From: Methanosarcina barkeri MS
GTDB taxonomy: Archaea > Halobacteriota > Methanosarcinia > Methanosarcinales > Methanosarcinaceae
Assembly: GCF_000970025.1 (NCBI RefSeq)
Contig: NZ_CP009528.1
Location: 979,168 to 1,043,167 of the forward strand
Length of the DNA: 64,000 nt
Reading direction: 5' to 3'
Numbering within the stretch: position 1 is the first letter of the stretch; each line of letters opens with the position of its first letter. The notes beneath the pieces are model-generated. The model saw only the letters and a program-made list of their open reading frames with translations, was not told the origin of the DNA and ran no database searches. Shown one piece after another: positions 30,573 to 62,694 of the stretch. The position numbers were made by a program, and so were the translations under genes.

Positions 30573-31829
30573 ATGAATCAAGATAACTATGAATATATTA
30601 TTCAGCCATCCCATCTTAAAGGAAAAGTAAAGATAAGTGGAGCAAAAAATAGTGCTTTGAAACTTCTTACTGCTTCGATACTAACAGAAGAAAAAATAGA
30701 TCTAATGAATTATCCTGCAAAATTACTTGACGCTCAAATTCATGTCGGCATGTTAGAAGCTCTAGGGAAGAAATGCATTATAAATGACGAAAAAATAGTT
30801 ATTTCTGAAAAAGAAGTTCCTTCACCAATTTTAGATTGGAGTAAACGTTCAATTCGTAATACCCTGCTTATATTAGGTGCATTAGTAAGCCGTATAGGCG
30901 AAGCGAAAGTCCCCCTTCCCGGAGGGTGTGATCTCGGAGAAAGAAAATTTGATTTACACGAAATGATTCTCACGAACATGGGGGCAAAAGTTTGGGTTGA
31001 AAATGATATGCTTTGTGCCAAAGCAGAAGATGGGCTAAAAGGTACCGATATATTTTTACCTATTCGTTCAACAGGTGCTACTGAAAATGCAATAATATGT
31101 GGATGTTTGGCTGAAGGTATAACTAAAGTTTGGAACCCTCATATTCGTCCTGAAATTTTAGATTTAATTAATTTTCTTAATAAGATGGGTGCAAAAATCC
31201 AGGTATTTGGACAGGAACATATAGAAATTACAGGGGTAGAAAAATTATATGGAGTTAAATATTCTGTAATTCCTGATAATATGGAAGCGATTACTTGGTT
31301 GATTGCTGCAGTAATTACAGGTGGAGATATTGAAATTATTAATTTTCCTTTCCGAGATCTTGAAGTTCCATTAATACATCTTCGTGAAAGTGGAGCAAAG
31401 TACTATATTGGTGACAATAGTCTGATCGTAAGAGGGGGAACCCCCTATCCAATAGAGATTAGCACCGGCCCTTATCCGGGAATTAATTCGGATATGCAAC
31501 CTTTATTTGCTGTTTATGGCGCCTGTGCAAAAGGTAGTTCCAAAATTATTGATTTACGTTTCCCTGGTAGATATTGTTATGCAAGTGAACTGGCCAAAAT
31601 GGGCTTGCAATATAATATCAACGGTAATATACTGGAAATCATCGGTGGGAATCCCCTTAATGGTGCTCAAGTAAGAGCTCTTGACCTCAGAGCTGGTATC
31701 GCATTAGTGTTAGCTGGGCTGGTGGCAAAAGGTGAGACCCGGATCTTAGATGCCTGGCAGATTGAAAGAGGATACGACAATTTTATAGAAAAATTAATTT
31801 CACTGGGGGGAAATGTAAGATATGGATAA
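30573..31829 (+). CDS. murA: MurA: UDP-GlcNAc 1-carboxyvinyltransferase
   Basis: 418 aa, full MurA length. MurA transfers enolpyruvate from PEP to the 3'-OH of UDP-GlcNAc. The two-domain inside-out barrel is complete. Lys25-Asn26 in ISGAKNSALKLL, the catalytic Cys119 with Arg124 in PLPGGCDLGERKFDLH, Asp307 in NSDMQPLF, Arg333 in GRYCYASEL and Arg399 in ERGYDNFIEKL match the bacterial active site. GAAGGA precedes the ATG. It overlaps murB by 8 nt. The host type has no murein, so the product should feed another lactyl-sugar polymer. The pair may have come from bacteria; the AT-rich composition is like its neighbours. MurA rather than AroA is indicated by the Cys motif. Confidence 0.92.
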   Translation: MNQDNYEYIIQPSHLKGKVKISGAKNSALKLLTASILTEEKIDLMNYPAKLLDAQIHVGMLEALGKKCIINDEKIVISEKEVPSPILDWSKRSIRNTLLILGALVSRIGEAKVPLPGGCDLGERKFDLHEMILTNMGAKVWVENDMLCAKAEDGLKGTDIFLPIRSTGATENAIICGCLAEGITKVWNPHIRPEILDLINFLNKMGAKIQVFGQEHIEITGVEKLYGVKYSVIPDNMEAITWLIAAVITGGDIEIINFPFRDLEVPLIHLRESGAKYYIGDNSLIVRGGTPYPIEISTGPYPGINSDMQPLFAVYGACAKGSSKIIDLRFPGRYCYASELAKMGLQYNINGNILEIIGGNPLNGAQVRALDLRAGIALVLAGLVAKGETRILDAWQIERGYDNFIEKLISLGGNVRYG

Positions 31830-32778
31830 AATAAATAATTTGATTAATAAAAATCTAGGAGACATTTGTTTAAAAGAGCCTCTTTCAAAGCACAGTAGCT
31901 GGCGGATTGGTGGTCCTGCAGATGTTTTAATTGAACCTTATACTATCGAACAGATACTCGAAATAATACAATATGCCAACTTAATGAAAATTCCTACAAT
32001 GGTTATAGGGAATGGAACAAATTTACTTTTTTCTGATGAAGGTTTTCGTGGAATTATAATAAAAATGGGTAAAAACTTTTCTAAGTATACTATTAGGGGT
32101 AAAAAGGCTTGCGCAGAGGCAGGTATCTGGACTCCAAAATTTGCAAAAATATTATCAGATAGTGGTTTATCAGGTCTTGAACATACCATTGGAATTCCAG
32201 GCACCCTTGGTGGACTTATTTTTATGAATGGAGGGAGCGGTGGAAAATGCATAGGAAACGTTGTCAAAAAAGTATGGGCTATTGACAAGAATTATGACTT
32301 AATATCTTTATCCCAAAAAGAATGTGATTTTTCTTACAGAAAATCAGTATTTCAGGATTCAGATTATATTATTTGTAAAATTGAGCTAGAATGTGAATTT
32401 GGAGAAAAAGAAAGAATAAAGTCTGAAATGAGAAAAATACTGGATAATCGTAAAAACAAGTTTCCACTTAATTATCCCAATTGTGGATCTGTTTTTTTAA
32501 GTAATCCTATTGTGAACGATATTTTTGCACCTCCCGGAAAGTTAATTGAAGAAGCAGGTTTAAAAGGTTATCAAATAGGTGGTGCTCAAATCTCGGAAAA
32601 ACATGCCAATTTTATAGTAAATCTGGGGAATGCCACTGCTAAAGATGTGATTTCTATTTTCCAATATATCCGAAAAGTTGTATATCAACGTTATGGACTT
32701 TGTTTAGAAAGCGAAGTGAGGTATGTAGGAGAGCTGGGAAGTCTCAGATCGTTGCATGAGGTTGGAAAAATTGAATAA
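31822..32778 (+). CDS. murB: MurB: UDP-N-acetylenolpyruvoylglucosamine reductase
   Basis: 318 aa. The FAD enzyme reduces the MurA product with NADPH to UDP-N-acetylmuramate. The FAD-binding part shows SSWRIGGPADVLIEP, VIGNGTNLLFSDEGFRG and GLEHTIGIPGTLGGLIFMNG. The substrate domain has the catalytic Ser223 in NCGSVFLSNP, then PGKLIEEAGLKGYQIGGAQ, and the catalytic Glu in LESEVRYVG near 298. It overlaps murA by 8 nt and the next gene by 23 nt, so the three are translationally coupled. Length and the short C-domain suggest type II MurB. Confidence 0.92.
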   Translation: MDKINNLINKNLGDICLKEPLSKHSSWRIGGPADVLIEPYTIEQILEIIQYANLMKIPTMVIGNGTNLLFSDEGFRGIIIKMGKNFSKYTIRGKKACAEAGIWTPKFAKILSDSGLSGLEHTIGIPGTLGGLIFMNGGSGGKCIGNVVKKVWAIDKNYDLISLSQKECDFSYRKSVFQDSDYIICKIELECEFGEKERIKSEMRKILDNRKNKFPLNYPNCGSVFLSNPIVNDIFAPPGKLIEEAGLKGYQIGGAQISEKHANFIVNLGNATAKDVISIFQYIRKVVYQRYGLCLESEVRYVGELGSLRSLHEVGKIE

Positions 32779-51159: not shown

Positions 51160-51268
51160 CAAGATAGAAATAATAAATGCTATTTTTAAAAGGTGGAAAA
51201 AGGAATATTAAAAATCTACGAGGCGGATGCTGTGGTGATTTTTACGAAACAGTGCATACTTTTATTTG

Positions 51269-51399
51269 AAGGCTGAGTGGCTTAAAGAGCTTACTGGAAA
51301 AGAGAGTCTAGTTATTCTGGATGGAATATAGTTGAACCGAATGAGTTTATTGAAAATGGTTTTGTTTATACGAAAATTGTGAGAGTAGATCAAAACTAA
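51269..51399 (+). pseudogene. C-terminal remnant of UDP-ManNAc dehydrogenase (wecC-like)
   Basis: KAEWLKELTGKESLVILDG in one frame, then (one-base shift) VEPNEFIENGFVYTKIVRVD in another, ends at TAA 51397-51399. The order matches the extreme C-terminus of nucleotide-sugar dehydrogenases. The rest of the gene is missing. The gap 51160-51468 has no other feature. Confidence 0.72.
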
Positions 51400-51468
51400 A
51401 ATGAGATCGTTTGAGTAGGGAATCACAATTTTAGAAGTAAGTTTAGTTTTATAAAATCCTGAAAAAGG

Positions 51469-52524
51469 ATGAACACAATGTATAAGAAATTAAAAGAAAA
51501 CAAGGAACTTTGGGATCTCTTTACCAGAAAGGAAGAATACGATCTGACCTTTCGTGATATGTATGAGAGATTTCCGTACTATCTAGGCAGCCAAAGAAAT
51601 ATTTTTGAACCCAGTGTTTCCAAATTTCTGTTAGAAAATGGGCTGAGACCGCAGTATCCGGACAGAAAACAGTTTGCTGTTTGCCTTACACACGACATTG
51701 ACATTGTTCATCCAGGTAGATTGTACCCAATATTTGGAGCCGCAAGATCTTTTGTTAAAGGAAATTTAACAGATGCTATAAAAATCCCCTTTTCTATACT
51801 TGACAAAAAACGAAATCCTTTCTGGAACTTTAAGGAAATAATGGAGCTAGAAGCAAAATATGATGCAAAATCCAGCTTTTATTTTTTAACTCTGGAATCC
51901 GGAGAGAGCGACTACAGCTATAATATAGAGGATATCGAAGATGAATTAAAGACTATATCAGAAAATGGATGGGAAGTTGGTCTCCACGGAGGACATGAAT
52001 CTTACAACAGTTTTGAGGACGTCAAGAAAAAAAAGCAAAAGCTTGAGAAGGTTCTCGGCAAAGAAGTAATTGGATACAGAAATCACTACTTAAGATTTAA
52101 GGTACCGAATACTTGGGAATTATTGAGTAAAGCAGGCTTCAAATACGACTCTACATTTGGATACGCTGATTGTGCAGGATTTAGGAATGGAATGTGCCAT
52201 CCGTTCAAACCTATTAATGTGAATACTGGACAACAGATCGACATTCTTGAGATCCCTCTGACAATCATGGATTGTACTTTATTTAAAGATTACATGCGAC
52301 TTGATTTTAAAAAGGCATGGGAATTCACAAAAAGTCTGATTGATACTGTTGAGCAGTGTAATGGTGTAATTACAATCTTATGGCATAATACATACATGCA
52401 GGAGGAGAATTTGAAATTTTATGAGAAAATTTTGGAATACTGTTCAGAGAAAAGAGCTTGGATGACGAGTGGTGAAGAAATTGCATTTTGTAAAAACAAT
52501 ATATTTTGTAAAAACAATATATAA
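51469..52524 (+). CDS. NodB-like polysaccharide deacetylase
   Basis: 351 aa (348 if the ATG at 51478, better spaced from AAGG, is used). The deacetylase core shows FAVCLTHDIDIVHPGR (the Asp and metal site), GWEVGLHGGHESYN (metal His residues), IGYRNHYLRF and TILWHNTYMQEENL. Such proteins remove N-acetyl groups from surface amino sugars, or act as paralogues near ATP-grasp genes. No signal peptide, so it acts in the cytoplasm. The C-terminus has a tandem duplication of FCKNNI. 45 nt before the ATP-grasp gene. Confidence 0.85.
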   Translation: MNTMYKKLKENKELWDLFTRKEEYDLTFRDMYERFPYYLGSQRNIFEPSVSKFLLENGLRPQYPDRKQFAVCLTHDIDIVHPGRLYPIFGAARSFVKGNLTDAIKIPFSILDKKRNPFWNFKEIMELEAKYDAKSSFYFLTLESGESDYSYNIEDIEDELKTISENGWEVGLHGGHESYNSFEDVKKKKQKLEKVLGKEVIGYRNHYLRFKVPNTWELLSKAGFKYDSTFGYADCAGFRNGMCHPFKPINVNTGQQIDILEIPLTIMDCTLFKDYMRLDFKKAWEFTKSLIDTVEQCNGVITILWHNTYMQEENLKFYEKILEYCSEKRAWMTSGEEIAFCKNNIFCKNNI

Positions 52525-52569
52525 TGTCAAGAATTTTACTAATTCACACATGAATAGTTGGTGTAATTA

Positions 52570-53754
52570 ATGAAAGTGTTAATTACTGATGGAGAGTTTA
52601 AACATAGTCTTGCAGCTGTTAGAGCTCTTGGAAAACAGGGAATTGAAGTCATATCTTCATCAATGTATGAACGAAATATGTCTTTTTATTCGAAATATTG
52701 TAATAAACAGTATTTATATTCAGATCAAATTAATGAAAAAGTGTTTATCTCAAACCTTATAGACATAATTAAACAAGAAAGTTGCGATGTATTGTTGCCC
52801 ATTGGATTTAAAAGTTGTATGAAGATTTCAAAATATCAGCAAACTTTGGAACAATACGTAAAAGTCCCACTTCCAAATTATGAATTTATGCTCATAGCAT
52901 CTGATAAAAATAAAACGATTAAATTTGCGATGGAAATGGGTATTCCCACACCAAAAACAATATTTCCTATGTCAATAGAAGAGGTAAAAAAAATTTCAAA
53001 TGATCTTCAATATCCTGTCGTAATTAAAGCACCGGAAGAATCAGGATCTGTAAAGTATGCAAATAATGAAAAGGAATTAATGATATTATATACACAAGTA
53101 TGTATTTCCCATCCACAACAAATAGAATCCGGAAAGTTTCCACAAATTCAAGAATATATTCCTGGTGAAGGATACGGTTTTTTTGCACTTTTCAATCATG
53201 GTGAACCTAGAGCAATTTTTGCGCATAAGAGACTTCATGAATATCCACCTACTGGTGGACCAAGTACAATGGCGCAAAGCATTTATGATCCAGATCTAAA
53301 TGCAATTGGTTTAAGACTTCTAAAATCTCTCTCTTGGCATGGGGTGGCAATGGTAGAGTTTAAAAAAGATATCAGAGATAACACATTTAAATTAATAGAA
53401 ATTAACCCAAAATTTTGGGGTTCCTTAGATCTTGCAATTGCATCTGGAGTTAATTTTCCATATCTTGCAGTTAAGATGTGTATAGATGGAGATATTAAAC
53501 CCGTTTTTGAATATAATAATAATTTGATATTTAAATGGATGTTCCCAGATTTCGTATATTCCATCGCAAATAATTGTTTAGGAAATTATTTCGTTAATTT
53601 ATTTAATAAAAATATCACAAATGACTTGGATTATAACGATATAAAACCAAATTTATTTCAATTTATTGATACAGTCTCGGAAATATATTTAAGAATAAAA
53701 AAGAAAAACTTAAGATATCCACATGGCAAACCGGAGATTGAACATGATCATTGA
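52570..53754 (+). CDS. ATP-grasp carboligase (COG3919-like)
   Basis: 394 aa. An N-terminal pre-grasp domain starts KVLITDGEFKHSLAAVRALG. The ATP-grasp core contains YPVVIKAPEESGSVKYANN, FPQIQEYIPGEGYGFFALFN and the metal-binding IEINPKFWGSLDLAI. Such enzymes join a carboxylate to an amine through an acyl-phosphate. Here it could amidate a uronic or muramic acid with an amino acid or amino sugar (inference). The last 11 nt overlap the PHP gene start. Confidence 0.85.
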   Translation: MKVLITDGEFKHSLAAVRALGKQGIEVISSSMYERNMSFYSKYCNKQYLYSDQINEKVFISNLIDIIKQESCDVLLPIGFKSCMKISKYQQTLEQYVKVPLPNYEFMLIASDKNKTIKFAMEMGIPTPKTIFPMSIEEVKKISNDLQYPVVIKAPEESGSVKYANNEKELMILYTQVCISHPQQIESGKFPQIQEYIPGEGYGFFALFNHGEPRAIFAHKRLHEYPPTGGPSTMAQSIYDPDLNAIGLRLLKSLSWHGVAMVEFKKDIRDNTFKLIEINPKFWGSLDLAIASGVNFPYLAVKMCIDGDIKPVFEYNNNLIFKWMFPDFVYSIANNCLGNYFVNLFNKNITNDLDYNDIKPNLFQFIDTVSEIYLRIKKKNLRYPHGKPEIEHDH

Positions 53755-54428
53755 TTTACATATACATTCAAAGTATTCTTTTGATTCAATACAGTCTCCT
53801 TCTAAGATAATAAAAATTGCAAAAAAAAAACCTAGATGGAATTGCGATAACTGATCACGGTACAATAAAAGGAGGACTTGAAGCTAAAAAGATAAACAAA
53901 GATCCTAATTTAATAGTAATAGTTGGATGTGAGATAAATACAGAGATTGGGGATATTATAGGTCTTTTTTTGAATAAAGAAATAAATTCAAGAAATAGCA
54001 TGGAAGTAATAAGAGAAATTAAAGCACAAGATGGAATTGTAGTACTTCCTCATCCCTACAGAGGTCATAAATTAAATGAAGAGTTATTAAACTCTGTTGA
54101 TGCCATTGAAGGATTTAACGCCAGAAGTACTATAGAAGAAAATGAAAAAGGGATGGAATTAGCCAAAAAGTACAATAAACCAATTGTTGCGGGAAGTGAT
54201 GCCCATTTCACTTCAGAAATTGGGAATGCTAAATGCTGCATTAATGAAGAGATTGGAGATTTAAAACTCGCTTTGTTATCTCATAAGAAAATATATTGTA
54301 ATCCAAGTCCTCAGCATTATAAAGAGATCAGCCAAATTATAAAATCATTTAAAATGAGAAAAATAAAAAAAATTCCGTTTCAAATCATATATTTAGCACA
54401 CAACTTGATAAAGAGAGAATTTATATGA
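53744..54428 (+). pseudogene. PHP-domain phosphoesterase, frameshifted in an A10 tract
   Basis: The ATG at 53744 (GGAGA 6-7 nt upstream) starts MIIDLHIHSKYSFDSIQSPS, with the PHP metal motif HxH. The frame breaks at ten A (53821-53830); with nine A it would continue as KKNLDGIAITDHGTIKGGLE. Later motifs VLPHPYRGHK and VAGSDAHFTSEIG are intact. Such proteins hydrolyse phosphate esters and often sit in polysaccharide clusters. The start overlaps the ATP-grasp gene by 11 nt, and the stop overlaps the pyruvyltransferase start (ATGA, 54425-54428). The break may be a sequencing error, slippage-based phase variation or a true mutation. Confidence 0.85.
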
Positions 54429-55720
54429 TAAACAAAACCATAGGACTTTTAGGTGCAATAGGGTATGACGACATGGGCGATGATGCATTGCTATTGGCGA
54501 ATCTCGATGCTTTAAAATCAAGGGAATATAATATTCTTATTTTTTCATATAGTGTATCTAGAACCACAAATCTTTTGATATCATATGGATTTTTACCAGA
54601 GAATAGTCTCTCCGATACTATTAAGATTGTCGACTCTTTTGATTATCTTAATCAAAAGATTATGTATAAGTATATAGATGTAGTATTAAATCGTCTGTGT
54701 AGAAATTCATCTGATATTTTCCAAACAATTAATCATAATCGAACTTTAAAAAAAATCACTAATAACATTAAGACCGAAAATAAACAAATCCCACACTTTA
54801 TCGAATACCTGACTAACATCAAAGAGTGTTCTTTGCTACTCTTTATTGGGGGAGGGTATATGAATAGATATTGGGGATGTAAAATATATCAATTTATAAG
54901 CACTCTTTCAATTGCTCACGAAGTTGGAATTCCATGCATTGCATCAGGCCAAACTTTCGGACCGCTTGATGATATACAGAAAAAAATTGTAAAAAAACAT
55001 ATTAATAAATTGGATTATATCTCAACTCGGGACATCAACCGGTCAAAAAAAAGGTTATTGGAACTTGGATTTGACGAAAATAAGATTATAGAAGGACCTG
55101 ATGATGCCATTTTTTTAAGCAAAAATATGAATTACATAAATAGATATGATTCCTCTTTCGTTGTTACTGTAAATTTTGGACTATTTTTAAAATACAGTAA
55201 GTATCCACTTGAATATATATACACTATTTTTGCACAATTTTTTGACTACCTGGTGGACAGCAAAAATGCTATTATTTTGAACATTTCGATGACCATTAGC
55301 GGTAAGGATATTGAGCAGGGATTATCGATACAAAGTAAAATGAAACATAAGGATAAGTTTTATTTTGTGCCTTTATACACTGATTTGAAAACAATTAAAG
55401 CAATTATTTCGACTTCCGATCTTGTTGTGAGTAGTCGGTTGCATCCAATCGTATTTTCGATTAGTGAAAGAAGACCCTATATTGGCATCTCCGGTGGTGG
55501 AGAATACTACAACTCTAAATTAATGGGTATCTCGGAAATTTACAGTTATATATCCGATAATCATATAATTGAAGCTGATAATTTGTCTCTAGATAAATTA
55601 AAAAATTTGTTATCTTCAACATTAAATGAAGATTATAGATTGAATAATATTTACGAATTAAATGAAACTAAAAGAAACAACTTTTTAAAGAAGGTGGACT
55701 CTTATTTTTATAAAAGCTAA
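54425..55720 (+). CDS. Polysaccharide pyruvyl transferase family protein
   Basis: 431 aa. Opens IGLLGAIGYDDMGDDALLLA with the PF04230-type G-x-x-N/D-x-GD loop, has LLLFIGGGYMNRYWGCKIYQ, then ASGQTFGPLD, and ends with VVSSRLHPIVFSISERRPYI. These enzymes add ketal pyruvate from PEP to surface sugars, giving them a negative charge. Translationally coupled to the PHP gene. Forms the last gene of the deacetylase/ATP-grasp/PHP operon, just before the outer transposable element. Confidence 0.85.
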   Translation: MINKTIGLLGAIGYDDMGDDALLLANLDALKSREYNILIFSYSVSRTTNLLISYGFLPENSLSDTIKIVDSFDYLNQKIMYKYIDVVLNRLCRNSSDIFQTINHNRTLKKITNNIKTENKQIPHFIEYLTNIKECSLLLFIGGGYMNRYWGCKIYQFISTLSIAHEVGIPCIASGQTFGPLDDIQKKIVKKHINKLDYISTRDINRSKKRLLELGFDENKIIEGPDDAIFLSKNMNYINRYDSSFVVTVNFGLFLKYSKYPLEYIYTIFAQFFDYLVDSKNAIILNISMTISGKDIEQGLSIQSKMKHKDKFYFVPLYTDLKTIKAIISTSDLVVSSRLHPIVFSISERRPYIGISGGGEYYNSKLMGISEIYSYISDNHIIEADNLSLDKLKNLLSSTLNEDYRLNNIYELNETKRNNFLKKVDSYFYKS

Positions 55721-55819: not shown

Positions 55820-56188
55820 TCATTTCTGGAATTGCTCTATAATTCCATTTTCCCAGATAATCATCAAATACAATTTCATATTTTCCTTGAAGTTTTCACT
55901 TACTTTTCTTGCTGTTGCATAAACTTTATCCTTAATCGTCGAAACCACTTTCAGTCCTGTTGATGTAGAAGTCTTATCAATAAGGCTTTTAACCACATCA
56001 AGACTGCTGAAAACGGCACCCTTACAGGCAGCCGTTACATGGCAGAATAACTTATGTTCAATTGGATTATATTTCGAAGTGTATGGTGGATAGTGAGCCA
56101 TTCGAATTTCAATTCCAATTTCATTTACCAGCTTTTGTAAGTCTTCCTTGAAAATATAATGTCTACTTGAGTTGCTTCCACCACCATC
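55820..56188 (-). pseudogene. Outer transposase, C-terminal part (ISAzo13-like)
   Basis: After the IS21 insertion site the frame reads GGGSNSSRHYIFKEDLQKLV, then MAHYPPYTSKYNPIEHKLFC and DKTSTSTGLKV. This is the C-terminal catalytic region of ISAzo13-type transposases. Joined in frame with 60803-61095 after excision of IS21 (one copy of the 5-bp target), giving LADGGGSNSSR. Confidence 0.8.
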
Positions 56189-56284
56189 TGTCAACGGCGG
56201 TTTACTTTTCCCCACTTTTGGCGGTTTAGAATTCCCCACCTATTGATATAAAGTTTACTCAATTTTTCATGAATTAACTCAAAA

Positions 56285-59200
56285 TCACTGGCACATATTT
56301 CCTGTTTTTATTCCCTGTTTTTTCCTCTCTTTCAGTCTGTAACTTTCTCCTTTGATATTAATTGTAGTACAATGATGGAGGTCAGCTAAGTAGGGGAGAT
56401 TACTCTCCCTTTCTCGCCTAAGAACTGTACGTGAGACTTTCACCTCATACAGCTCAAGCATCTTCTAACCCTTGTGTTGGGCAGCAGTTATTTGATTTGG
56501 AGTTAGTTGCGTGGTATTGTCTATGACAGTGTGCATGCAAATAGATTAAGTTGTATGTTCTGTTATCTTCGTGGCTTCCATTCTTGTGATGTAGAGGTCT
56601 TTCTACTGCATCAGTATTAATGTCAATTGGAAAATTGCAGATAGGACATATGCCTTCTTGGTTATCCCACACTTTCCTGAATTTTCCTGAAAGCTTTCTT
56701 AAGCCTTGATTGTATTTGCGTTCAGCATAGTATCCTTTGTCGAGGTAAGGGTTTATACCTAATGTTAGTTTGATGTGTCTAACTATCTTTTTATTTGATA
56801 AAAGCTTCAGTTGGTTTGTTTCAGTTGAAAATACCCAATGTCTTGCTCCCTTGGTATGCCAGTATTTCCGACTTATCCAGTGATGGGATCTACCTGGGTG
56901 TCTTCTCTTGGCCCACTTCCATGTCATACTCCAGATTCTTTTATCCATTTCAGAGAATATTTCTTTGGATACCACGCCTTGATGGTAATTAGACCATCCA
57001 GTTATGATTGGGTTAAGAGTTTGGATTAATTTTTCTTGTGTCCAAGGTTTGCCATTCTTGATGACATCACTGATTTTCTCAGTGACTTTCTGAATGGATT
57101 TTTTGGATGGTTTGATAAGAAGCTTTCCTTTGTATTTTCTGAAATTCCAGCCTAAAAAGTCAAAACCATCGTTAATATGGGTAATTAGTGTTTTTTCTTC
57201 CGATAATTCCAGACCTTTATCTTTTAGGAATATTTTAATCAGTTCTTTGGCTTCTTCCGCTATTTCCTCAGTTTTTGCAGTAACAATGAAGTCATCTGCA
57301 TACCTTACAAAATTTACGTTATGTTTATCACGTTGAAATTTTGTTATTCTTCCACTTTTTCCGCGATGATATTTATTTGCCAATATACCTTCAATCCCAT
57401 CTAAGGTCATATTGGCAAGAATTGGGGATATGATACCACCTTGCGGTGTACCTTTTTTGGTCGGAAAGAGGTTTTGTTTAAAAACGAAGCCTGCTTTAAG
57501 GAATTGTTTAAGAACTGATTTGTCCATTGGAATATTGTCAAGTAACCATTGGTGACTAATGTTATCGAAGCAACCTTTTATATCTCCTTCCAGTATCCAG
57601 GATGCAGAGAACTTTTGACATGTGCATCCAAATATTTGTTCGCATGCGTCATGTGTACTTCTGAATTTTCTAAATCCAAAAGAGTGTTTGTCTGCCGTAG
57701 CTTCTGAAATCGGGTTAAGTGCTAATGCATATAATGATTGCATAGCTCTGTCGTACATGGTTGGGATACCTAAAGGTCGTTTCTTTGACTTCCCATATTT
57801 TTCAATATGAACTCTTTTTAATGGTTTGGCTTTATATCTTCTGTTAGTTAGACTAAGGGAGGCTTTCATCTTGGCGTCGGGAGTTTTCCACAATTCACCA
57901 TCGATTCCTGCCGTTTTCTTACCTTTGTTCTGAATTACCTTTCTGACAGCTAACAATTTGGCGTAGAAAGAGTGGGTTAACAAATAGCTTAATCTTTTAA
58001 CTAAGTTCCATTTGCCTTTAAAAACCGCTTTCGTAATCCTGACTTGTAGCCTATTAACATGTGTTTCAACTGCTTTCCAATTGATATTGTTCCATCGAAA
58101 TTTCAGTTGTTTGTTAGTGAGCTTCTCGTTGATTGGTTCAGCTTGTTCACTATAACAGCCAGTCTCTCTGTTTGTTTTATTCCATAAGAGATTGACAGCA
58201 AGTGTTTCTGCTTTCTGAATCAGCGTATTTGAATGACTCCCTTTCATAGGACATACTTTCATTCTTACGTTTTGATACCATAGAGTAAGTCAGCATCCTT
58301 TCGGATTAGGGCAAATTTGGAACCCCTATACAATTGATTACAAATTGTCATTCGCTTGCTACTCCCTTCCTCTACCCTCTATGTCATTGTTATCCTTTGC
58401 AGGATTCCTACCCTAGGGAACATATAGGGCTTACCAAGTTCTATAACATGAATAATTATGAATACCTTAGAAGCCATCTCTAAGCCGAGAGTTCTTTGTC
58501 CATTTCCCATTACGTCGAATAAGCCATAATGGTCTGACTCTTCACCTTTTGGTTCAAGTGTATCAGTCTAATTTCACTTGTCACTTGTTACGACTCTTAC
58601 AATGGTTCACATTACGTTCTTCATAGTATTCTTATCCTAACAGATGATTTAGATTAGACTTCCAAATTTCTCCATATTGTCCTATGAGCTTCACACCTTG
58701 ACGTTATCATCAACGCATGTCATAGTAGGATTATCCCAAATGGAAGGGATAGCATTTCTGCAATTCATGCTTTAGCTTTCTTGTCGCACTATTCTATCAA
58801 GTACAGCAGCCGCTATTACATGGTCCTTGAATATCTCTCCCCATTCTCCATATGACTTATTCGACGTAAATATGGTTGAACTCTTTTCATAACGTCTGGA
58901 AATCAACTGAAACAAACAGTGAGCTCCTTCTTCATCAAATGGGAGATAACCCATTTCATCAATGATCAGCACTTTAAATTTCATCAAGCCTTTGAGCTTT
59001 TTCTCAAGTATTCCTTCCCGATTTGCTATTTTTAACCTCTCAATAAGGTTTCCTGTATTGGTAAAGTAAACCGAAATGCCTGCTTTTACTGCTTCAATCC
59101 CAAGAGCAATTGCAAGGTGAGACTTTCCAACTCCAGGAGGACCGAGCAAAACAACATTCTCTGCATTATGAGCAAATCTTAAGGTTGCAAGGTCTTCTAT

Positions 59201-59467
59201 GACTTTTTTATCAATAGATGACTGAAACTCAAAATCGAATTCTTCAAGTGTCTTTTTCACAGGAAAAACAGCACTTTTCATTCTCCTTTCCATTGCAGCA
59301 GATTCCCTGTGTTTCTTTTCCTGTTCAAAAAGATAATCAAGGACTTCCATTGTTGTCTTGCTGTCTCTTGCAGCAATCTCAAGGCAGTTGTCCAGAAGAT
59401 CTTCAATAGTATTCAGTTTTAGGTACTGCAAGTTAGTGTGAAGTCTCTCATAGCTGAAATTATTCAT
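56285..59467 (-). CDS. istB: istB ATPase, split by a group II intron
   Basis: IstB is the AAA+ helper ATPase of IS21 transposition. Exon 1 (58790-59467, 226 codons) has LLGPPGVGKSHLAIALGIEA (Walker A) and VLIIDEMGYLPFDEEG (Walker B), and ends AAAVLDRI. Exon 2 (56285-56380) begins LHHCTTINIKGESYRLKERK, exactly the missing IstB end. Splicing at the predicted ends joins codons without loss, giving 257 aa. Unspliced mRNA would stop after VRQES. The start overlaps the istA stop by 4 nt. Confidence 0.92.
56381..58789 (-). other. Group II intron (self-splicing retroelement), 2409 bp
   Basis: The 5' end GTGCGACAAG (58789 downward) fits the GUGYG consensus. The 3' end CTTAGCTGAC lies just before 56380 and ends in AY. 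Domain V is recognisable near 56403-56455 (GAGCTGTATGAGGTGAAAGT then a matching 3' arm with CACGTACAGTTC), and a domain VI-like hairpin with GGGAG/CTCCC follows. The reverse transcriptase ORF lies in domain IV. It occupies a codon boundary of istB. Confidence 0.92.
56454..58262 (-). CDS. ltrA: Group II intron-encoded reverse transcriptase/maturase with HNH domain
   Basis: 602 aa. RT motifs: KRPLGIPTMYDRAMQSLYA (about 161-179), EGDIKGCFDNISH, TPQGGIISPILANM and the catalytic YADD (321-324). The maturase X domain (about 390-480) and a C-terminal HNH endonuclease, CPICNFPIDI with RPLHHKNGSHEDN and LHAHCHRQYH, follow. It supports intron splicing and retrohoming. The protein is full length, so the intron may be mobile. 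The N-terminus MKVCPMKGSHSNTL is usual for this RT class. Confidence 0.95.
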   Translation of the reverse strand: MKVCPMKGSHSNTLIQKAETLAVNLLWNKTNRETGCYSEQAEPINEKLTNKQLKFRWNNINWKAVETHVNRLQVRITKAVFKGKWNLVKRLSYLLTHSFYAKLLAVRKVIQNKGKKTAGIDGELWKTPDAKMKASLSLTNRRYKAKPLKRVHIEKYGKSKKRPLGIPTMYDRAMQSLYALALNPISEATADKHSFGFRKFRSTHDACEQIFGCTCQKFSASWILEGDIKGCFDNISHQWLLDNIPMDKSVLKQFLKAGFVFKQNLFPTKKGTPQGGIISPILANMTLDGIEGILANKYHRGKSGRITKFQRDKHNVNFVRYADDFIVTAKTEEIAEEAKELIKIFLKDKGLELSEEKTLITHINDGFDFLGWNFRKYKGKLLIKPSKKSIQKVTEKISDVIKNGKPWTQEKLIQTLNPIITGWSNYHQGVVSKEIFSEMDKRIWSMTWKWAKRRHPGRSHHWISRKYWHTKGARHWVFSTETNQLKLLSNKKIVRHIKLTLGINPYLDKGYYAERKYNQGLRKLSGKFRKVWDNQEGICPICNFPIDINTDAVERPLHHKNGSHEDNRTYNLIYLHAHCHRQYHATNSKSNNCCPTQGLEDA

Positions 59468-60714
59468 TCTAAACCACCATCACTGAATGTTTCATAGACA
59501 TCGAGAGACCTCTTTTCAACTTCAAGACCTGAAAACTTCAACAGAATATGTGGACTCTTCTTACATTTTGAATTCTCGTTAAGAATCTCACTCAGAAGAC
59601 CCTTGAAATGTTCTTTTTTCCTGGTAACTCTGCAGTTACCTGGAAGAATTTCATGTTCACAGACCTTCTCATAATCAACATAGACCTCGAATTTTCCTTC
59701 AAAGATCTGAAGCTTTGCAGTTCTTCCTGCAAACTTGTAAGGAACAGAATACTTATTTCCAAGATAAGAAATATAACAGTCTCTTGAGATCTTTCTGGTT
59801 TCTGTCTTAACAACTTTGTATCTGGGAACTTGATTCAAAAGGTTCAGTTTCTCTTTTTCATTCTTAAAGCGCTCAAGAGGGATTTCATGAGTTGTTCCAT
59901 GTATACTTGAATTCACTCTCTTTAACCACTCAAGAGCCTGATTATTCAGGCTCTCAAGAGAGCTGAATTCTCTTCCAAGGAAAAAATCCCTCTTTACGTA
60001 TCCAATAGTGTTCTCAATTTTCCCTTTTGTCTGAGGTCTATATGGCCTGCATAAGCGAGGAATGAATCCATAATGCTTGAAGAAATCCTCATACTGTGAG
60101 TTCCATTCTGAATCTGAGGATTTCATTGCTCTCTTTATTACAACTTGTTTCATGTTGTCGTACAGAATTTCCTGTGTACATCCACCAAAGTATTGAAATG
60201 CATTCAAATGGCACTGAATTAATGTAAAAGTGTCAATGCTCAGTGTACATTCGACATATCGCATTCTTGAGTATCCAAGAATCATGCTAAAACAGAAAAG
60301 TTTTTTGAGTTTTCCATCGACTTCAACCGTTCCTAATTCTCCCCAGTCAACCTGAGCCTGAACACCTGGTTTTGTCTCATATCGGAGTACCGCAGGTACT
60401 CCCTGTTTAGGTCTGACTGTTCTCACAAAATCCTTAACGATGGTTTCTCCACCATCAAAACCCATTTTCTGTATTTCACGAAAGAGGCGAGCTGCAGTAT
60501 AGTGTTTTTCATTAATCTTTTCGAGTAAGTAAGGTTTATACGGATCAAGTTTGCTCGGTCTTGGCGGACGTTTCTGGGGTTCGGGTAAGGTTTTCAGCTG
60601 AAGATATTTTCTTACAGTTTTTCTGTCATAACCTGTTCTTTCAGAGATTTCGCTTATGTTCAAGCCTTGTGAATACAAATCTCGTATCAATAACCATTCC
60701 TCCATTTTCAGCAT
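59464..60714 (-). CDS. istA: istA transposase, IS21 family
   Basis: 416 aa from the ATG at 60714 (MLKMEEWLLIRDLYSQGLNI); an upstream ATG (60765) adds 17 residues. An N-terminal HTH (ISEISERTGYDRKTVRKYLQ) precedes the rve/DDE core with VQAQVDWGELGTVEV, then EILYDNMKQVV and CRPYRPQTKGKIENTIGYVK. The gene is intact and overlaps istB by 4 nt (ATGA). Confidence 0.93.
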   Translation of the reverse strand: MLKMEEWLLIRDLYSQGLNISEISERTGYDRKTVRKYLQLKTLPEPQKRPPRPSKLDPYKPYLLEKINEKHYTAARLFREIQKMGFDGGETIVKDFVRTVRPKQGVPAVLRYETKPGVQAQVDWGELGTVEVDGKLKKLFCFSMILGYSRMRYVECTLSIDTFTLIQCHLNAFQYFGGCTQEILYDNMKQVVIKRAMKSSDSEWNSQYEDFFKHYGFIPRLCRPYRPQTKGKIENTIGYVKRDFFLGREFSSLESLNNQALEWLKRVNSSIHGTTHEIPLERFKNEKEKLNLLNQVPRYKVVKTETRKISRDCYISYLGNKYSVPYKFAGRTAKLQIFEGKFEVYVDYEKVCEHEILPGNCRVTRKKEHFKGLLSEILNENSKCKKSPHILLKFSGLEVEKRSLDVYETFSDGGLE

Positions 60715-60802
60715 TATCCACAATCCTCGAACTTTTCTCAAGGATTGGGAATTGGGGAATTTCAAACCGCCGAAAATGAGGAATTCTTAACCGCCGTTGA
60801 CA

Positions 60803-61203: not shown

Positions 61204-62694
61204 TCATCTAAATAATACATAGTTAATTTTTTTGAAAAGCATATTTCTGATATTAATACAAAAGTCTTTTACTATATTTAAGTCATGTCTACTAATCCCT
61301 TTGATCAGAATCATTATCGTAAGATAAACGAATGCACCCATTAATACTGAGCCGAAAAGGCCCATAATATTAGAAGGATTTAAACAAGAAATAACTCCTA
61401 ACATAATTGAAGAGGCCATGACACTTCTCAAAATAAAACCAAAATTTAGATTGAATTCAATATATTTATAAGAAACAAGGATACAGATTATTACCATTAA
61501 TGTGTATGAAATTAAAGTGGCAATTGCTGCTCCAACAATGCCAATTGATGGAATCAACAAAAAATTAAAAACTATGTTTAACAAGGCAGCAAAGATATGG
61601 ATATACAAATTGAATTTTGTTTTTTTTACAAGATGTGTAATATTGATAACTATCTGAAAAATACCTGATAAAAGTCCTGATAAGGCAATAAAAGGAATAA
61701 CAATACTACCTGAAATGAATTCATGTGTTGTAAGAATTTCCAACATAGGCTTTGCAAGTGCAGATAATCCAAAAACAGCAGGAATCGCTATTAAAAGGAA
61801 ATATTTCATTGAATAACTTAAATAAACCTTCACTTCATCGATTTTCCCTTCATCAAATAAACGTGAAAGTTCTGGAAACAAGATGAATTGGAGAGGTGTA
61901 ATAAACAAAAGAATAAGATTTCCAATAGCATATGAAGCTGAATAAATTCCAACTTGGCTTAATCCTAGGAAATAACTGACCATATACCTATCACTTGAAT
62001 CGGTGATCCATCTGATGAGAGAATTTGGAGTCAATGGTGCAGAGTATTTTAAATACTCTTCAATCTGATTAAATTTGGGGATTCTAAAACCTATCTGTGA
62101 TACGATTTTGTAAATAGAGATTATGAACAATAATCCCTGAACAATTAGTACAGCTGATATAACTTCAAACAAGCCGAATCCCATTAAGAGAAATGATAAA
62201 ATCAAAGTTAGTTGCCCGAATGTCTGAAATAAAGTTAAAAAGGCAAATGTTTCGGTCTGTCGGGATACTCTAAAATAAAAAAGTGAAATTTGATTAATTG
62301 CACTTAAAAAAACCAAAAAAGCTCCCACTTTTATGAAATCTGAGGTACTTATATCTTTGAATATACTTGCAGCCAAGAAATCAGATAATAGAAATACCAC
62401 TATAGATACTAATAATCCGGTGAAAGCAACAAAAAACAGTACAGAAAAAAATCCTTCCCTTATTTTTTCGTTGTCTTTTTCCGAAGAGAGAAATCTTACA
62501 ACTCCCATAGATAGGCCCATAAGAGCGAGAGGAGATAAAAGAGACACAGTAATATTTATTTGTGCCCAAATCCCATAATCATAAGACCCCAGCGTTTTTG
62601 TGATTACTGGAAGCAAAAAGAAGCCACTCAGCCCTATTAAGGCCTGAGTAATTCCTATAAGCCCAACATCTTTTATAAATTTGGTATTTGCCAT
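61204..62694 (-). CDS. Oligosaccharide flippase (Wzx/PST-like), second copy
   Basis: 496 aa with about 14 membrane helices. The start MANTKFIKDVGLIGITQALI, then LPVITKTLGSYDYGIWAQI and the RFLSSEKDNEKIREGFFSV segment are typical of polysaccharide exporters. Not closely similar to the flippase at 33333, so a different lipid-linked glycan is likely. On the minus strand near wecB-2, divergent in context from the pyruvyltransferase operon. Confidence 0.88.
   Translation of the reverse strand: MANTKFIKDVGLIGITQALIGLSGFFLLPVITKTLGSYDYGIWAQINITVSLLSPLALMGLSMGVVRFLSSEKDNEKIREGFFSVLFFVAFTGLLVSIVVFLLSDFLAASIFKDISTSDFIKVGAFLVFLSAINQISLFYFRVSRQTETFAFLTLFQTFGQLTLILSFLLMGFGLFEVISAVLIVQGLLFIISIYKIVSQIGFRIPKFNQIEEYLKYSAPLTPNSLIRWITDSSDRYMVSYFLGLSQVGIYSASYAIGNLILLFITPLQFILFPELSRLFDEGKIDEVKVYLSYSMKYFLLIAIPAVFGLSALAKPMLEILTTHEFISGSIVIPFIALSGLLSGIFQIVINITHLVKKTKFNLYIHIFAALLNIVFNFLLIPSIGIVGAAIATLISYTLMVIICILVSYKYIEFNLNFGFILRSVMASSIMLGVISCLNPSNIMGLFGSVLMGAFVYLTIMILIKGISRHDLNIVKDFCINIRNMLFKKINYVLFR

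Follow-up and report, generated by a model that had tools for sequence, protein, structure and literature searches.

What do the four joined genes at positions 51,469 to 55,720 of the analysed stretch of the Methanosarcina barkeri MS chromosome do together? The stretch, called the window here, comprises 64,000 nucleotides (NZ_CP009528.1, positions 979,168 to 1,043,167; G000:C2:979168-1043167 in our genome set, G000 being the window genome), and the genes encode a VimE-like deacetylase, an ATP-grasp enzyme, a PHP-domain protein, and a member of the polysaccharide pyruvyltransferase family. Our data show that deacetylase, ATP-grasp, and PHP genes form a conserved three-gene module in archaea and bacteria. 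With a probability of about one half, we read this module as a Wbp/Vim-like system which deacetylates and re-acylates an amino-uronate, the ATP-grasp enzyme and the PHP protein taking the place of VimA. A warning applies to the window locus itself, where the PHP reading frame is broken.

The recurrence of the module was followed by scanning a nine-row ATP-grasp alignment over species genomes. The best 80 of 530 confirmed loci were taken, and 12 loci were added, namely the window and 11 from relatives. An ATP-grasp gene was called in 89 of these 92 loci (all except L086, L090, and L152). The sample was picked by similarity to an alignment that holds several of these loci, and fractions refer to this sample only; furthermore, 24 of the 89 loci end within three genes, which makes the counts lower bounds. 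Deacetylase, ATP-grasp, and PHP genes followed each other in this order on one strand in 15 of the 89 loci. The archaeal ones were the window, a genome of the same genus (G020, L066), Euryarchaeota metagenome-assembled genomes (L079, L087), Methanoculleus and other Methanomicrobiales (L080, L081, L082, L084), Hermodarchaeum from the Asgard group (L085), and Altarchaeum (L142). Five were found in Bacteroidetes (L111, L120, L122, L132, L158), and in two of these, L111 and L122, the three genes stand alone, flanked by genes on the opposite strand. The order ATP-grasp, PHP, deacetylase was present in five further loci (L091, L099, L104, L115, L148). Conservation of gene order in other genomes, which the preliminary description of this DNA had named as its own refutation check, was thereby confirmed, for three genes only. 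Next to the deacetylase, 4 of the 15 trio loci also carry a gene of the asparagine-synthase type (L111, L122, L142, L158; Pfam on L122 and L142).

The association also holds at the level of single neighbors. With one ATP-grasp gene counted per locus, PHP genes accounted for 38 of 479 genes at a distance of up to three genes from the ATP-grasp gene and for 4 of 790 genes farther away (Fisher p 6e-13). A nearby PHP gene was present in 39 of the 89 loci (38 with one ATP-grasp gene per locus). A VimE-like deacetylase was located within the same distance in 21 of the 89 loci, and 20 of these, with L092 as the exception, also contained the PHP gene, compared to 4 of the 28 loci with a NodB-type deacetylase. 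Because of this difference, the target of the PHP protein probably belongs to the reaction of the VimE-like deacetylase and the ATP-grasp enzyme.

The putative substrate is suggested by the deacetylase. Its best named match was NF053580 (VimE; E 2.7e-44, 151.5 bits, model positions 141-421), defined in the family entry as UDP-2,3-diacetamido-2,3-dideoxy-alpha-D-glucuronate deacetylase, while Polysacc_deac_1 (2.9e-4) remained below the Pfam cut-off. The structure model (mean predicted local distance difference test score, pLDDT, of 88) has the carbohydrate esterase 4 (CE4) fold, with a VIA Z of 22.9 to 3rxz (root mean square deviation 3.2, 245 aligned), 19.2 to ArnD, and 15.4 to WbmS. VimE-like genes were detected in 29 of the 30 genomes of the genus, including the window genome; only G026 gave no match. 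A copy at C2:4396697 of the window genome, 72% identical to the window deacetylase, is the last gene of a one-strand operon, in which it is preceded by genes for a hexapeptide acetyltransferase, a DegT aminotransferase, a UDP-N-acetylglucosamine (UDP-GlcNAc) 3-dehydrogenase (526 bits against a cut-off of 450), and a nucleotide-sugar dehydrogenase. We infer from these assignments that the operon holds the enzyme kinds of the Wbp pathway, of the UDP-2,3-diacetamido-glucuronate type. A further VimE-like copy (L182) has a DUF354-like gene as its neighbor in the same genome and, at a distance of three genes, a FemAB-like gene.

No Wbp set adjoins the window deacetylase, and only a decayed dehydrogenase tail is left there. 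This remnant came to light in a tblastn search limited to this stretch, with the dehydrogenase of the same genome as query (E 2e-8 and 3e-8; matches in two frames, with internal stops), and window DNA from 51214 to 52481 aligns at 73% to the junction between dehydrogenase end and deacetylase in the Wbp-like operon. In the tree, which carries a long-branch warning elsewhere, the window deacetylase groups first with the copy on a G013 plasmid (support 100/99); the two together join the wbpA-linked Methanosarcina copies of the operon type (97/98). Thus, as judged from the remnant, the junction alignment, and the tree placement, the window deacetylase arose by duplication of a Wbp-linked copy and has since diverged, so that its substrate is probably the same. 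The G013 plasmid (L186, G013:C1, 58,133 bp) carries the nearest relative found, with 84.5% DNA identity over 1029 bp, and there the deacetylase adjoins an ATP-grasp gene of another branch.

The ATP-grasp enzyme is the best candidate for the re-acylating partner. Its model (pLDDT 96) and its conserved residues K113, K153, E277, and N279, whose individual roles we take to be of the ATP/Mg type, place it in the ATP-grasp superfamily (ATPgrasp_Ter 5.7e-9 in Pfam). The VIA Z was 30.4 to 2pn1, 29.0 to the L-amino acid ligase BL00235 (3vot), 28.9 to PurK, 28.5 to biotin carboxylase, and 27.6 to PylC (4ffr), and the match extends over nearly the full length for 2pn1, the L-amino acid ligase, and PylC. 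Although the whole fold is shared with all five, identity to them is 10-20%, and the likeness is one of fold only.

The Wbp/Vim pathway, described for oral Bacteroidetes (Porphyromonas gingivalis, Tannerella forsythia) and some other bacteria, provides the model for our reading. According to PMC7468200, diacetamido-glucuronate is made in P. gingivalis by WbpA, WbpB, WbpE, and WbpD, VimE is proposed to remove the C-2 acetyl group and to expose the amine, the FemAB-like VimA determines whether the added residue is serine or glycine, and the uronamide is formed by WbpS. M. barkeri resembles this system in the VimE-like deacetylase, in its co-occurrence with genes for Wbp-type enzymes and a FemAB-like protein elsewhere in the genome, in the pairing of the deacetylase with a predicted acyl-transferring enzyme, and in the asparagine-synthase-type neighbor at some of the loci. 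In contrast, ATP-grasp and PHP genes instead of VimA/FemAB stand beside the window deacetylase, and the host is an archaeon without a detected exosortase.

In the pathway that we propose, the chromosomal Wbp-type operon would provide UDP-2,3-diacetamido-glucuronate, as its gene content suggests, and the VimE-like deacetylase would strip one N-acetyl group and expose an amine, as homology and linkage suggest. The ATP-grasp enzyme would then form the acyl phosphate of a carboxylic acid, an amino or hydroxy acid being the most likely, and couple the acid to the freed amine, replacing VimA/FemAB; here the fold comes from the model, and ligase activity and substrate are predictions. That the freed amine is the acceptor is suggested by the pairing of ATP-grasp genes with deacetylases. 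The PHP protein may remove a phosphate whose removal is needed only when the ATP-grasp enzyme is used, perhaps, as a guess, one brought in by a phosphorylated acyl donor such as O-phosphoserine and removed after coupling. Finally, a glycosyltransferase would add the sugar to a surface glycan, which the pyruvyltransferase, as an optional neighbor, may also decorate. The earlier suggestion that the deacetylase frees an amine and the ATP-grasp enzyme joins it to a carboxylate fits this context, namely the VimE-like deacetylase, the ATP-grasp fold, the conserved linkage, and the Vim analogue (PMC7468200). Given the broken PHP frame, the phosphate-removing step may be lost in the window genome, if neither slippage nor a sequencing error accounts for the break.

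A bolder version of this pathway appears improbable to us. Here the trio would be a cross-domain, tRNA-independent route to an aminoacylated amino-uronate, in which the ATP-grasp enzyme couples a phosphorylated amino acid, e.g. O-phosphoserine, to the amine left by the VimE-type deacetylase, and the PHP protein dephosphorylates the product, resulting in a seryl sugar of the VimA type. O-phosphoserine is available in methanogens. If true, a second anchor or surface sugar would exist beside the VimA route in archaea and in Bacteroidetes with type IX sorting domains in their genomes.

The PHP gene of the window is the weak point of the locus. Its ATG at 53744 reads 36 residues including HIH and then runs into a stop, whereas the rest of the PHP domain, up to 54428, is open in another frame, the main part of which is without further stop. 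The frame switch falls inside a run of ten A residues (A10), one of two A/T runs of at least 9 in the 64-kb window, and parts the HxH from the remaining motifs. The TTG listed as a start at 53817 is mechanical and would leave out the HxH. The complete set of PHP metal-ligand motifs, which in relatives occurs together, is therefore not contained in one protein here. Among the other 42 sampled PHP genes, HxH (YxH in L138) and the TDH part share a frame in 42 of 42. HxH through TDH plus one spans 35 residues in all 36 genes matched by this pattern, and the six genes outside the pattern have the HxH, or the YxH in L138, in frame with the rest. The relatives are like the PHP phosphoesterases (CehA/McbA-type metallohydrolases; 3e0f and others) in their metal-binding motifs, and the window gene differs by its frameshift. 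Decay, sequencing error, and slippage are candidate causes of the break, and if the frame is neither rescued nor misread, the module is probably impaired in the window genome.

Partners of VimE-like deacetylases were also compared independently of the ATP-grasp sample. In a class-wide search 60 of 237 genomes were positive, and all 38 open reading frames (ORFs) outside the genus were taken (L189, L210-L245); 7 of the 38 end within three genes, so that the following counts are lower bounds, and L217 is probably the same locus as L079. A FemAB gene lay within three genes in 22 cases, an ATP-grasp gene in 6, and both in 2, or on the same strand 20 and 5, respectively. Together, FemAB and ATP-grasp genes represented 36 of 214 near genes versus 5 of 182 far genes (p 2e-6). 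The commonest partner of archaeal VimE-like deacetylases is FemAB, and ATP-grasp is rarer. All five trio Bacteroidetes contain an additional VimE-like gene with a higher VimE score. A FemAB-like gene comes directly after it in 3 of the 5; in the fourth (L251) the ORF at this place has a similar start but is truncated at the end of the locus, and the fifth (L250) gave no FemAB call. Type IX sorting domains gave at least 150 scored matches in each of these five genomes.

Several of our results weigh against the proposed role. The PHP gene is frame-shifted in the window. The score of the deacetylase lies far below the curated VimE cut-off of 440, and the first 140 of the 431 positions of the VimE model are unmatched. 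The first Foldseek match of the ATP-grasp model was biotin carboxylase, and by VIA Z biotin carboxylase and PurK tie with the amino acid ligase. Because ligases and carboxylases tie, the fold alone does not fix the reaction. Nor is the ATP-grasp gene bound to one type of partner: the loci with a NodB-type deacetylase mentioned above make up 28 of the 89, short deacetylases were near the ATP-grasp gene in 12 of the 89 (with PHP in 9 of the 12), and 22 of the 89 (23 with one ATP-grasp gene per locus) had neither deacetylase nor PHP. Thus, the ATP-grasp chemistry need not be tied to this sugar. Conversely, 12 of the 38 VimE-like deacetylases had neither FemAB nor ATP-grasp nearby, and in Bacteroidetes the trio is not a simple replacement, since a VimE/VimA-like pair is also present in most of the five genomes. 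Exosortase PF09721 was not found in the window genome, while 30 of 59 searched genomes matched; other sortase types were not searched. An exosortase-like gene near the ATP-grasp cluster in L062, L064, L097, and L121 (by Pfam in L064 only) was not used for M. barkeri. Finally, the G+C content is 0.35 in the deacetylase gene and 0.30 in the other three, and with this step the set in the window may be a chance join.

Four alternatives have to be weighed against this reading. The ATP-grasp enzyme might form an amide at C-6 of the uronate, by linking an amine (ammonia or an amino acid) to the carboxylate there, with the deacetylase acting at a separate position. This would agree with a likely uronate substrate, with the need of ATP-grasp ligases for a carboxylate, and with the threonine-amide uronates known in Methanococcus glycans. 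We nevertheless consider this unlikely, as the asparagine-synthase-type gene, a kind proposed to make uronamides, already adjoins the trio in 4 of 15 loci, and the pairing with deacetylases points to the freed amine as acceptor. The MurA/MurB-derived carboxylates, here taken as lactyl groups, that the preliminary description offered as a speculation for the ATP-grasp enzyme are hardly credible: MurA- and MurB-like genes do occur in the window, yet at a distance of about 19 kb; a reading of the neighborhood tables, with no dedicated search run, brought none to notice next to the trio; and the likely sugar comes from the Wbp-like operon elsewhere in the chromosome.

The two other alternatives start from the broken PHP frame. 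The set in the window could be a decaying, non-functional remnant, in which a duplicated wbpA-vimE end became joined, beside mobile elements, to ATP-grasp, PHP, and pyruvyltransferase genes gained by horizontal transfer. The frameshift, the decayed dehydrogenase tail, the transposase remnant and group II intron ORF downstream, and the G+C step are consistent with such a history, which we regard as rather doubtful given that the remaining three ORFs are unbroken, the main PHP frame is free of additional stops, and the same gene order persists elsewhere. Alternatively, transcriptional or ribosomal slippage at the A10 run could restore the PHP frame, leaving the module intact. Runs of this kind are rare in the window, and both flanking frames keep conserved motifs; against this, none of the 42 other PHP genes breaks its frame there and in L121 the frame stays intact despite an A10 run, so that slippage, too, seems a less probable explanation. 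Our preferred reading, a deacetylation and re-acylation of the amino-uronate, offers a testable function for a widespread ATP-grasp/PHP pair that is unnamed in the family libraries used. It also suggests that Wbp/Vim chemistry extends to archaea and that the exposed amine can be re-acylated by a second route. Among open-licence papers, we found none that joins an ATP-grasp enzyme with a polysaccharide deacetylase and PHP, or VimE with ATP-grasp, none on an archaeal VimE by title among the matches listed, and nothing on Methanosarcina with UDP-GlcNAc 3-dehydrogenase, on ATP-grasp with uronic acid, or on Methanococcus maripaludis threonine/AglU.

The fourth gene appears to be a neighbor rather than a member of the module. 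The pyruvyltransferase scored 100.5 bits with PF04230 (gathering cut-off 25.3) and is thus like the polysaccharide pyruvyltransferases in its Pfam domain; it differs from CsaB, whose model TIGR03609 gave 66.2 bits against a curated cut-off of 213.1, and was not found to recur with the trio. Of the other 14 trio loci, 2 end at the PHP gene (L081, L120) and 12 have a next gene, 11 of which were scanned with Pfam, L122 being left out. None of these 11 genes was a PF04230 gene. Instead, a glycosyltransferase was next in 4 loci (L066, L080, L084, L087), a methyltransferase in 3 (L132, L142, L082; in L082 on the other strand), a thiamine pyrophosphate enzyme in 1 (L085), and a gene of no family in 3 (L079, L111, L158). 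The single-sequence pyruvyltransferase model, with 1 of 89 loci, was too weak and missed a PF04230 gene in L079, and the iterated model matched its three seeds only; distant pyruvyltransferases elsewhere in the loci may have escaped. A conserved unit of four genes was rejected as far as tested, and its first three genes recur. A loose link of the pyruvyltransferase to the same glycan is possible: in L079 the PF04230 gene is located five genes from the ATP-grasp gene, and in the archaeon G059 (L215) a split VimE-like gene, a FemAB-like gene, and a PF04230 gene occur in succession.

The layout of the locus is given in Table 1. The four joined genes of the preliminary description were recovered as three long ORFs at the positions given, with both overlaps, but the PHP gene is not one open frame. 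A gap of 45 nt separates deacetylase and ATP-grasp genes, the ATP-grasp stop ending at 53754 overlaps the PHP ATG by 11 nt, and PHP and pyruvyltransferase genes share an ATGA at 54425-54428.

Table 1. Features of the deacetylase/ATP-grasp/PHP locus in window coordinates
Feature	Position	Strand	Evidence
Decayed 3' end of UDP-sugar dehydrogenase (wbpA-like)	51214..51420 (right end approximate)	+	tblastn with own-genome dehydrogenase
VimE-like CE4 N-deacetylase, 351 aa	51469..52524	+	NF053580 match, CE4 fold model, tree
ATP-grasp enzyme, 394 aa	52570..53754	+	Model, structural matches, conserved residues
PHP gene, first part, 36 aa with HxH, early stop	53744..53854	+	Translation
A10 run, site of PHP frame change	53821..53830	+	
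PHP gene, main part, 203 aa, other frame than first part	53817..54428	+	PHP_C E 2.4e-11, alignment
Polysaccharide pyruvyltransferase-family gene, 431 aa	54425..55720	+	PF04230 (PS_pyruv_trans) E 2.1e-28

Downstream, at 55820-60765, Pfam identified the transposase remnant and the group II intron-type ORF, and an IS21-like pair was seen by eye in this region just 3' of the operon. The G013 plasmid also encodes a counterpart of the window flippase at 61204 (85% protein identity), and parts of the window locus may move between plasmid and chromosome. The C-terminus of the window deacetylase consists of a repeated FCKNNI FCKNNI, a small tandem duplication at 52488-52521. In G059, the VimE-like gene (L215:7529-8299) has two in-frame TAG codons, which may reflect either pyrrolysine readthrough or a pseudogene. 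At 30573-32778 of the window, bacterial-type MurA-like and MurB-like genes lie side by side. The former scored 400 bits, over the subfamily cut-off of 297, and 384 against the equivalog cut-off of 393; the latter was over its cut-off. Methanogens are not known to make murein.

Two PHP genes, at L062:14455-14500 and L085:11170-11240, have the HxH in frame with no preceding ATG, GTG, or TTG in that frame, which points to an unusual start codon or an assembly error. A close PHP paralogue was observed in L063, L070, L071, L072 (two), L073, L074, and L075, in the company of genes for a UbiA prenyltransferase, an LPG-synthase-TM membrane protein, and a DUF362 protein, which Pfam identified in L070. 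By reading, UbiA-like genes were recognized in L063, L071, L073, L074, and L075, LPG-like genes in L063, L071, L072, and L073, and DUF362-like genes in L063, L071, L072, and L074. These loci look like a polyprenyl-phosphate sugar pathway with PHP as the phosphatase. In Deltaproteobacteria, ATP-grasp relatives in L124, L130, L131, L145, L146, and L150 stand beside genes of the radical S-adenosylmethionine/SPASM kind (Pfam for L130 only) and are followed by a NodB-type gene in all except L145. Some of these loci contain, by eye, RND-like and ketosynthase-like genes and represent another cluster type.

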